64,000 nt of DNA from Nereocystis luetkeana (lineage: Eukaryota > Sar > Phaeophyceae > Laminariales > Laminariaceae): assembly GCA_031213475.1 (NCBI GenBank), contig JARUPZ010000003.1, forward strand, positions 15,804,869 through 15,868,868, in the 5' to 3' direction. Shown here one piece after another: positions 5,840-41,100 of the stretch (position 1 is its first letter; every line of letters begins with the position of its first letter). The position numbers and the translations under genes are program-made. Below the pieces are notes generated by a model. That model saw only the letters and a program-made list of their open reading frames with translations, made no database searches and was not told where the DNA came from.

Positions 5840-6114
5840 TTACGGGGGACCATAGTTACTAGGACCAAATATTGTTATAATAGTAAAAACGGGTAAATAT
5901 ATTTAGGTTTTTATGTGTACCATGGGTCCTATTAACTACTATTAACAGGACCAAATATTGTTAGTAAAAATGGTTAAATATATTTAGGTTTTTATGTGTA
6001 CCATGGGTCCTATTAACTACTAGGACCAAATATGGTTATTAATAGTAAAAATGGTCAAATATATTTAGGTTTTTATGTGTATACCATGAGTCCTATTAAC
6101 TATGGTCCCCCGTA
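5840..6114. mobile_element. Family A MITE with triplicated interior
   Basis: One pair of outer termini encloses three head-to-tail copies of the inner ~85 bases (aggaccaaat ... gggtcctatt). The third unit carries an exact TATTAATA micro-insertion at 6037-6044 relative to the second. Confidence 0.88.
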
Positions 6115-6451
6115 TAGTAGGATGCAGCTCACCCTTCATGCGATTCGTCGGACTCGTCGTGTCGCTTCGCGCTTGACGATTGATTGATTGCTTTTTTTTC
6201 GGCCCATGGGACCACCTCCAAGTTTTTGTTTCCAACACAGAGTAGAAGCACTTATTATGCTAGCCCAACGTGGCGGAGCCGCGCGGACGGTTCTTATGCG
6301 GGTCGGGTCGAGTAGGAGTATATACTGTATGTAGTATAATAAAGGTCACAGGTATGGGGTTGGGGTTGAGCTTGAGTTGGGTCAGGTCGCCGCTAAGTGC
6401 TTGGTCATCGATCGGTCATCAGGGCGTTTGGGAGTGGTTGTTTGGGTAGTA

Positions 6452-38100: not shown

Positions 38101-41100
38101 GAGCTCTCGCTTGGACGCCTCAAGAGCCGCGATGACATGACGATCATCCTTCTCGCCAACGCCAGGCGCCTGCAACCGCAATTCGTAGACGTGACGTGGT
38201 GGCAGTATGGTCACTTCGGTGACATGCAGGCGGAAAAGGCGCTATAGGAACGGCCCCAGCGAGCCTGGTACGTACTGCTGCTACTAAAGTTCCTGGTAAA
38301 GCTACTGCTGAAGCTACTGCTAGAGCTACTGCTGAAGCTACTGCTAAAGATACTAAAGCTACTGCTAAAGTTCCTGCTACAGAAGCTACTGCTGAAGCTA
38401 CTGCTAAAGCTACTGCTAGAGCTACTGCTGAAGCTACTGCTAAAGCTACTGCTGAAGCTACTGCTAAAGCTACTGCTGAAGCTACTGCTAAAGCTACTGC
38501 TGAAGCTACCGCCACTACCAGTGCCACAGCCACGATTGCCACTTCTCCTACTGCTAAAGTTACTGATAAAGCTCCTGCCAAAAGCTGCTGCTGACGATAC
38601 TGCGAAGCTACTGCTACTACCACCGCCACAACTACAGCAACTACTCTACCACTACCACCAATACCATCACTCTCACCGCAACTACCACGACCACTTCTCC
38701 TGCTAAAGCTACTGCTAAAGCTACTGCTAAAGCTACTGCTAAAGCTACTGCTAAAGCTACTGCTAAAGCTACTGCTCAAGCTACTGCTCAAGCTACTGAT
38801 ATTACAATAGTAACACCATCCCGAAGACGCCAACTGCATGGCCACAACCACGACGCGCCACCTCCCCTCCTCGTGGTTACTCAAATCGCACCTGGCGTGT
38901 GCGGACGGACACACGCCGAGGTGGAGACGGCGACAAAAAACGACACGGCTACAGCGTACTGTAGAGGCAGGCACCCACCGACACAAATAACATAAATCAA
39001 TAGCGGCGGGGGCAACCGAACCCATCGTGGGGGGTGCAGCGCAAAAACCACATTGCGGGGGGTGCAGCGCAAACGCCACATCGTGGGGGGTGGAGTGCAG
39101 TGCAGTGCAGTGCAGTGCAGTGCAACGCGGCGCAACGAACTGCGTCGCGCAACATCTTTATATATTTCGACCAACGTATGTACCTCCTCAAGAGATGCCT
39201 TGATCACTTCCATCAGCAGCTTCTGCTCATCGCGTTCAATGCTCTCCCGCTCCGCCATGGTCTTCACTCGCGCCAACGCCTGCGCCTCGCGTCTGGCCTC
39301 GCGCTCGCGCTCCGTCCCGTACTTCTTTTCGTAAGCTGTTAAAAACCGTAAAGAAGAAAAAAAAAACCCGGCAGAAACGTTGAAACAAAAAAAAAGTCGT
39401 GCTATTCAAAATTGTAAAATAAAATGCAAATCAAAATGTCAAATCAAGTATCTGTAAGACACGTTGTGTGGTAAACGCTGTGGCACATATTGTACGTGGC
39501 AAACGCAGGAGGAGAGGGAGGGGGGCGGCCCGGCAACAAAACTAGGGCCGCAAAGCACCCGGCGGACAGCATGGTGGCGCGACGATGGTTCCCGCCGACG
39601 GTCACGAAACAAACTTGGAACAAAAACAGAAGCGCATTGGACCATACTAAATAGGACCCACGGTACACACAAAAAAAAACATATTTCGCTATTTTTACCA
39701 ACAATATTTGGTCCTGTATCCTATGGTCCCCCCCGTAAAATATTAGACGCGAGTCGACGAGGAAAGAAAATGCTGAGCTCTTCTCCAGAAGAAAAAATGA
39801 AGGCACGCTCCGTAGTAGGAGGGAGGGGGAGAAGTGCCTCGGATGTTAGTCCAAAGACAAATGGTTGGTCAGGGTTACGGAAGGGAGGGGGCTGGACGCT
39901 AGGGAAAAATGAGAAAGTAGATGGGACGGAGAAAATAAAATAAAAGCAGAAGCTAACCCCCCCCCCCCCAAAAAAAAAAAAAAAAAAACGTGGTGGCGTA
40001 GTTTTTGAAGGTGTTAACTTAGCCCCTCATGACACTTGTAACTCGCTCAGCTCCTGCCAAGCGTTGACGAATGAAGAACTCGATTCCAGCGCGGCCAAAA
40101 GCTCACAAAACAGCGAGCCCGCGGAACCTCCCCCAGTCAGCAACGCCTTTTCACCACCGACAAAAACATGCTTTCAACGGTCAAAATCTTAACAACGGAA
40201 CAAATCGCTTAACGGTGAAAAAACAAAACGTACCAGGTCGTAACTTTTTTTTTTTCACCACAAGCGAAGAAGCTACTTTTCCAACGGCCTAAAACTCAAC
40301 GGAACAAAACGTTCAACAATTGAACGCCATCCAACGGTAACATAGCAATCGAGGCCATGCATGCATGCATGCATGCATGCACGCACACACACCTCTGGTC
40401 GATTCCGCCGCCGATTCCCTGATGGCGATCCTCATAAGGCGCTCTTCGTCCTCCTCTAGCGTCAAGCCCATCAAAGGCTCATGCCCAAGGCGCATAGCCT
40501 CTACTCGGTCCTCCGTAGAAGGCTGGTCAGTCAGTCGATGAGGGTCAGTCACCGAGGTCGGTCAGTGAATCACTGACGTCAATCACCCAGGTCAGCTATT
40601 AATAGTCACCAAAGTCGGTCAAACACCCGAAGTCAGCTAGTCACTAAAGTCATCACCAAGGTCAGCCAGTCACCGGGGTCAGTCATTCGCCAAGGTCAGT
40701 CACCGAGGTCAGTCAATCACCGAGGTCAGTCAATCACCAAGGTCAGTCAGTCATCGAGGTCAGTCGGTCACCCCGAACAAGGCACGAGTCGACGAGGGAA
40801 GAAAGGGCCGCAGTCTTCTCGAGATAAAAATGAGTCATCAAGGCACACGCCGTAGTGGGGAGGGGAAGGGAGAACTCACCGACTACTAACATGGAGCGAG
40901 AACATAACGCCAAAACTGAAGGGGAAGAAAAGAAACAAAGGAATAAAACAAACAAAAGTCGGTCAGCCAGTAGAGTTATTTAGCCACCGGAGTCAGTTCA
41001 GTCACCGAGGAGTCAGTGGTCAGCCAGTGACGAGATGAGGTCAATCAAGTCAGTCAGTGACGAGATGAGGTCTAGTCGGTCACGGGGTGATATCCAGTCA

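Follow-up and report, generated by a model that had tools for sequence, protein, structure and literature searches.

Elements of the Tc1/mariner type excise through double-strand breaks and insert at TA dinucleotides (PMC2170065), and their excision leaves small 3' overhangs derived from the element ends (PMC4423477). In the excerpts of this literature on which our comparison draws, known TA-bounded scars hold 0–4 bases: 0–3 for ZB (PMC7913693) and 0–4 for the pogo element Passer (PMC9976928), while the Tc1/mariner element Sleeping Beauty leaves TAC(A/T)GTA (PMC3432063). The subject of the present study is the word TATTAATA in a 64,000-base stretch of the Nereocystis luetkeana genome (the window; contig C3, 15804869–15868868, from an assembly of 465 Mb in 1987 contigs). 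We propose that this word is the excision footprint of a TA-transposon, namely the ~107-bp miniature inverted-repeat transposable elements (MITEs) that we call family A, together with any autonomous relative that has the same ends. We put the probability of this reading at roughly 0.85.

If so, TATTAATA and the Sleeping Beauty scar would be alike in that both consist of end bases, bounded by TAs, which a cut-and-paste element leaves where it is cut out. They differ in that Sleeping Beauty leaves three bases between the TAs, whereas TATTAATA has four (TTAA), which form a palindrome with bases from either end of the element. Stowaway and Osmar5 (PMC1925063) and Ppmar2 (PMC9632168; 1–4 bases) leave fragments of their ends beside the TAs, as the cited excerpts describe for grasses and for yeast assays; like family A as we read it, these are TA-flanked elements that leave end fragments (1–4 bases) at TAs. 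Yet Stowaway-type elements are described as having left five distinct footprints at one Triticeae intron site (PMC1925063, PMC9632168), while in the case of TATTAATA one form is dominant and can be counted. The ends are different as well: rice Mariner has CTCCCTC (PMC4423477), family A TTACGGGGGACC. A survey of DNA-transposon excision sites in rice, based on the comparison of two species, resembles the present analysis in taking a genome-scale view of excision scars (PMC4423477). According to the part of that report used here, 8 of the 94 rice sites were perfect and the rest had deletions or filler, whereas the scars in our data are short and TA-bounded, although the searches that we used would miss deletions. 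Varied repair scars make excision hard to spot in assemblies. Excision scars of TA-transposons are of a known kind; a dominant, recognizable scar per family that outnumbers the elements found looks unusual. A full-text search for TATTAATA together with transposons, in a collection that leaves out most subscription journals, found no paper, and none of the listed titles and abstracts on genome-wide excision footprints and brown algae describes such scars.

Abundance of TATTAATA and its exact gain at TA

The original prediction, made from the window alone, held that TATTAATA occurs there by the dozen. Indeed, we counted 44 copies, against 0.7–1.0 expected under Markov models of orders 0–2 and 5.3 under order 3. 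The expectation rises to 20–41 under orders 4–6 because such models already hold most of the word. Simulated chains (60 runs for each order) contained a mean of 0.88 copies and a maximum of 5 under order 2, and a mean of 5.45 and a maximum of 11 under order 3. Once a low-complexity filter was applied, TATTAATA topped the over-represented 8-mers of the window under order 2; the 30 words listed for order 3, with ACCAGGTA and ACCTGGTA at their head, do not include it. Positions 6037–40639 hold 26 of the 44 copies, and 14 of the 44 are contained in or adjoin simple repeats. Outside the window, a sample of 20 stretches of 10 kb (200 kb; L009–L028) held 47 copies against 1–2 expected, with 0–11 per stretch; extrapolated from these stretches, the genome would have ~100,000 copies, to an order of magnitude. 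Among the 16 palindromes of the form TA-xyYX-TA in the window and the sample together (264 kb), TATTAATA was the most frequent with 91 copies, followed by TATATATA (81), which is a simple repeat, TAATATTA (20) and TACCGGTA (15); the other twelve had 0–6. The Markov expectations, the simulations and the palindrome counts rule out chance or base composition as the cause of this abundance.

It was also predicted that the word arises by an exact gain of six bases at a TA, and the three empty/filled pairs quoted for this are all present in the window as written. In the short interspersed nuclear element (SINE) that we call SINE-2, the empty form CTCGTAGGAGG (complement) at 3369 and 34583 stands against the filled CTCGTATTAATAGGAGG at 24078; in the GTCAG array, empty CAGCTAGTCAC at 40634 stands against CAGCTATTAATAGTCAC at 40593; and in a MITE, GTTAGTAAAA, found at 5960 and at 11 other places (both strands), stands against GTTATTAATAGTAAAA at 6035. 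Alignments of paralogues, which covered ~334 kb of repeats (one overlapping locus removed), bear the claim out. They contain 62 sites with a six-base gain, 20 of which can be written as TA-X-TA; 13 of these 20 are TATTAATA (four of the 13 in the window), compared with 123 of the 2277 TA-N4-TA words in the aligned set (p 3e-12). The share of 13/20 is not unbiased, since some of the aligned loci were fetched for carrying the motif. Gains with an empty partner were found in SINE-2, in a repeat at L008:879 and L037:915, at L006:1681 and L037:1033, and at positions 2379, 6037 and 60658 of the window.

Family A and TATTAATA at shared sites

Family A is ~107 bp long (one fetched copy measures ~240) and has palindromic ends. 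In place, it reads TA-TTACGGGGG...CCCCCGTAA-TA, which confirms the predicted insertion at TA and the predicted ends TT...AA. The bases between the TAs of TATTAATA are the terminal bases of this element, TT and AA from TTAC...GTAA. Its matches number 29 in the window, a count that takes in fragments and one weak match, and 26 in the 200-kb sample; in either case 19 are near full length. With its TA duplication, short length and terminal inverted repeats, family A has the features of a Tc1/mariner-type (TA) MITE. De novo scans for TA-bounded end families recovered it clearly; other candidates were weak only.

One SINE-2 site ties the word to the element. A search for AGGGTAAAACCTCCTA and CGAGTTAGGCTGG separated by 0–30 bases gave 501 matches (reversed-pattern control, 0). 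Among the 100 matches listed, 83 have a plain TA and 17 an insert, and all 17 inserts have the form TA-(X-TA)n: TTAA in three, a lone CCAGG/CCTGG in six, CCGG, CCG, CGC and CC in one each, and chains in four. The identical 16-base left flank of the SINE, with no right flank required, is followed by TATTAATA at 47 places (seven belong to small unplaced contigs, which possibly repeat others) and by the exact family A end TTACGGGG at 12 (reversed controls, 0 for both). In the eight family A loci that were fetched, in all of which the search pattern itself places the start of the element at this TA, the SINE resumes with TACGAG in five, so that TA stands on both sides of the element where empty copies have one; it resumes with GACGAG in one (L039), and not so in two (L037 and L041). 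Thus, one and the same TA is found empty in some copies, occupied by family A in others and scarred with TATTAATA in yet others, among paralogous SINE copies of one assembly rather than between strains. The notion that TATTAATA is an ancestral target for family A was rejected, the site being plain TA in 83 of the 100 listed copies. In L041, scar and element seem to have a TA in common, the right TA of the MITE being also the start of a TATTAATA (CCGTAATATTAATA).

The word and the element also agree in their targets. Family A prefers to insert after TNNTAC, before TA, and from 55 of its ends we built a preference model that scores the eight bases before TA. Under this model, 163 distinct 8-base flanks of TATTAATA (out of at most 182) score +0.60 bit, compared with −1.27 for random TA sets (sd 0.15; maximum −0.76 in 2000). 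The preference is not carried by the companion TACC(A/T)GGTA (TACCWGGTA; −1.76) or by the CAGCAG (−1.10) and CGAG (−1.40) words, and the flank model of family A correlates with that of TATTAATA at 0.74 vs. −0.21 with that of TACCWGGTA. After strict filtering of simple repeats, TATTAATA flanks score +0.65 (z 10.7), and the remaining words of this form that consist of A and T alone score −1.55. Site sharing and target preference could each have failed; both held, and the footprint interpretation, which had been put forward as an inference, gains support from them.

Could TATTAATA have been inherited instead, spreading inside SINEs and other repeats that already contained it, such that few gains became many copies? 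On a tree of 30 SINE copies, a single origin of the seven footprint copies is not rejected (approximately unbiased test, p-AU 0.20), as such inheritance would have it; for footprint and MITE copies together, the value is 0.015. However, the footprint copies are not clustered on that tree (6 changes; shuffled mean 6.4). Filled copies that have an empty partner are known from several distinct sites (SINE-2, the L008/L037 repeat, L006, L037 and the window), and the many distinct flanks counted above remain. We therefore regard inheritance as extremely unlikely to account for the word.

Positions in the window of TATTAATA, family A and the empty counterparts of filled sites
Feature	Position	Strand	Basis
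TATTAATA	2379..2386		empty paralogue found
TATTAATA	2479..2486		word count
empty SINE-2 site CTCGTAGGAGG	3369..3379	-	direct comparison with filled copy
TATTAATA	3515..3522		word count
TATTAATA	4179..4186		word count
TATTAATA	4367..4374		word count
family A MITE	4546..4655		profile match
family A MITE	5057..5169		profile match
family A MITE, inner part repeated (three A segments)	5838..6114		profile match
empty counterpart GTTAGTAAAA	5960..5969	+	repeated family A MITE
TATTAATA	6037..6044		within family A repeat; empty paralogues found
family A MITE	6449..6558		profile match
family A MITE	8209..8317		profile match
family A MITE with TACCTGGTA at 11131	11073..11190		profile match
family A MITE	12294..12403		profile match
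family A MITE	12490..12601		profile match
TATTAATA	12651..12658		word count
family A MITE with TACCTGGTA at 12734	12684..12802		profile match
TATTAATA	13538..13545		word count
family A MITE with TACCTGGTA at 13964	13915..14031		profile match
TATTAATA	14560..14567		word count
TATTAATA	14684..14691		word count
TATTAATA	14774..14781		word count
TATTAATA	15250..15257		word count
TATTAATA	15367..15374		word count
TATTAATA	16536..16543		word count
TATTAATA	16545..16552		word count
TATTAATA	17112..17119		word count
TATTAATA	17281..17288		word count
family A MITE	19511..19620		profile match
TATTAATA	19552..19559		within family A MITE
TATTAATA	19621..19628		adjoins family A MITE
TATTAATA	20496..20503		word count
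family A MITE, lying within a further family A copy	23514..23624		profile match
family A MITE	23680..23788		profile match
TATTAATA	23789..23796		adjoins family A MITE
TATTAATA	24082..24089		SINE-2 test site; empty paralogues found
family A MITE	26290..26405		profile match
TATTAATA	31377..31384		word count
TATTAATA	33555..33562		end of TAC microsatellite
empty SINE-2 site CTCGTAGGAGG	34583..34593	-	direct comparison with filled copy
TATTAATA	35685..35692		word count
TATTAATA	36415..36422		word count
TATTAATA	36942..36949		word count
family A MITE	37158..37263		profile match
TATTAATA	37644..37651		in TAA microsatellite
TATTAATA	37668..37675		in TAA microsatellite
TATTAATA	37728..37735		in TAA microsatellite
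family A MITE	39639..39737		profile match
TATTAATA	40597..40604		in GTCAG array
empty counterpart CAGCTAGTCAC	40634..40644	+	GTCAG array
family A MITE	44910..45020		profile match
TATTAATA	45989..45996		word count
TATTAATA	47213..47220		end of ACT microsatellite
TATTAATA	48452..48459		edge of family A MITE
family A MITE	48459..48571		profile match
TATTAATA	48660..48667		word count
TATTAATATTAATA = two TATTAATA sites with common TA (49128, 49134)	49128..49141		word count
three family A segments	51438..51769		profile match
TATTAATA	51793..51800		word count
family A MITE	57958..58069		profile match
TATTAATA	58380..58387		word count
TATTAATA	58530..58537		word count
TATTAATA	59619..59626		word count
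TATTAATA	59855..59862		word count
family A MITE	60044..60160		profile match
TATTAATA	60658..60665		empty paralogue found
TATTAATA	61508..61515		word count

Two other features of the window were observed. A palindromic repeat family of ~95 bp (family B), with ends TTAACCC...GGGTTAA, is present at 1239–1335 and at ~14 more places (30 matches, both strands counted). An exon-like frame at 61498–62907 has protein matches, for the most part unnamed, that include, among four labelled by organism, three from Laminaria digitata (55–60% identity) and one from Ectocarpus (36%).

The companion motif TACC(A/T)GGTA

The earlier, window-only account had missed that other TA-bounded micro-insertions exist beside TATTAATA. 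TACC(A/T)GGTA was counted 47 times in the window (27 with A and 20 with T; three more sites, for a total of 50, have C as the middle base and none has G) and 102 times in the 200-kb sample, more than TATTAATA. It occurs inside MITEs and SINEs, often as chains with a common TA (e.g., 4380, 4387, 36622 and 36629), and has a flank preference of its own, TANNANR before TA. The motif looks young; its one-mismatch excess over exact forms is 0.32, vs. 2.0 for TATTAATA, a value inflated by TAA repeats.

At the SINE-2 test TA, 196 SINE copies bear TACC, 29 of them on contigs C1–C4. Nine of the 29 are short inserts from the test-site search. The 20 others, when read, gave TACCWGGTA in 17, TACCGGTA in two and TACCTGCTA in one; in L053 the SINE did not resume within the stretch read. 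None of these 29 copies, out of the 196, showed a long element at this site. A candidate MITE family of ~78 bp, with inverted repeats, TA flanks and ends TA-CCACTCTGTCC, was seen at L024 505–581 and L013 3657–3736. As a possible source of TACCWGGTA it gained no support, since 45 loosely matched ends lack the flank preference of that word (z 0.3). A source element was looked for among the 29 SINE copies and in the ~78-bp family, and was not found in either. Further TA-bounded words are over-represented in the 264 kb, namely TACAGCAGTA/TACTGCTGTA (observed/expected 44), TACGAGTA (6.6), TACCAGTA (3.5), TACCGGTA (3.4) and TACAGTA (2.2); these are perhaps the scars of additional TA-transposons.

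How the scar may form, and what it may record

Tc1/mariner elements are cut 2–3 bases inside their ends. Before excision, family A would sit between its two TAs in the arrangement given above; afterwards, every flank would retain TA plus 2–3 terminal bases, and joining would produce TA-TTAA-TA, a net gain of six. We infer that a mariner/pogo-type transposase may cut three bases inside the family A end and leave 3' TTA on both flanks. These overhangs could pair via their self-complementary TA, and filling of the one-base gaps would yield TA-TTAA-TA. Retention of two bases per end is an alternative joining that would give the same letters. Overhang pairing would favor four bases over six or eight and hence a single product; in the 264 kb there are 91 copies of TATTAATA vs. 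two of the 3+3 product TATTATAATA and none of the 4+4 product TATTACGTAATA.

This narrow remnant length also speaks against deletion of the palindromic MITE as a hairpin, in which slippage or a structure nuclease, and no transposase, would leave two stem bases on each side. Hairpins are prone to deletion, and family A copies fit the family profile on both strands across almost their full length, so that they could form them; because the same sites would be concerned, hairpin deletion also predicts an identical target preference. The similar word TACCWGGTA, however, is found at the SINE site with no long element in the 29 copies (of 196) seen there, and we consider such deletion quite unlikely as the origin of TATTAATA.

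Counts of TATTAATA and family A stand at 47/26 in the 200-kb sample, 44/29 in the window and 47/12 at the SINE site; scars therefore outnumber surviving elements ~1.5- to 4-fold. An excess of this kind would suit a transposase that makes tiny insertions directly at target TAs, by abortive reaction or gap repair, with no full element beforehand, as would the want of a long element at the TACC-bearing SINE sites read; a target preference common to scars and elements is likewise predicted. Yet the gained bases are family A's own termini, and full elements occupy the same TA. To our knowledge, moreover, neither mariner nor pogo transposases have been established to react in this way. We judge direct insertion to be very unlikely.

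Several observations weigh against the excision of family A as the source. For TATTAATA, we observed directly an exact gain, a site in common with family A and a target preference in common with it; excision itself is read from paralogues within a single assembly. The p-AU of 0.20 given above leaves room for a single origin of the seven SINE copies. Searches of the genome for DDE_3 and DDE_1 domains did not find a transposase with family A ends: DDE_3, sought as the mark of an autonomous partner, had 0 matches, and DDE_1 had 28, with one of the four loci read showing TA-flanked inverted ends that differ from those of family A. Across the 10-kb stretches (n=20), counts of TATTAATA are only weakly correlated with those of family A (Spearman 0.42, p 0.06); their correlation with TACCWGGTA is stronger (0.58, p 0.007). 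In the 264 kb, more copies than expected were likewise counted of TATTATA (74 vs. 24.5) and TATTTAATA (11 vs. 1.1), whose flanks do not clearly resemble those of family A (z 1.4 and 1.6); the scar is therefore less uniform than stated, or these words have another origin. The flanks of TAATAATA partly resemble the family A preference (z 6.0; 4.1 after filtering), and TA-N4-TA words in general show it slightly (z 3.3, filtered); sequence context may therefore account for part of the signal. Finally, a second, larger repeat site gave 2753 matches, and the 100 listed have far fewer inserts than the SINE-2 site: 97 are plain TA, one each is TATTTAATA, TATA and TATTATCAATAGTA, and none is TATTAATA, which is present at this site in two fetched loci (L008 and L037).

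The DDE_1 locus with TA-flanked ends is a 2.6-kb pogo-like element (L067 1552–4163) whose inverted ends, CAGTGGGGGGCCCT, match at 14/14 positions. Like family A it is flanked by TA, but its ends are G-rich (CAG...) where those of family A are TTACGGGGG. Viral contigs searched with a family A stretch gave 0 matches.

Beyond the origin of TATTAATA itself, we would give even odds to a wider picture in which the genome is a countable ledger of excisions. It would hold two or more TA-transposon families that differ in target preference and in the scar typical of each, TATTAATA for family A and TACC(A/T)GGTA for a family known by its scars only; these scars would outnumber the elements found and rank among the commonest dispersed short words, and they would owe their uniformity to overhang pairing before fill-in. 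If this is true, a recognizable scar of known source would allow excision counts, ages and target choice to be read from one genome, and models for the persistence of cut-and-paste elements could be tested by setting the number of scars in each family against that of its elements. The TACCWGGTA class hints at a family that searches based on elements would overlook.

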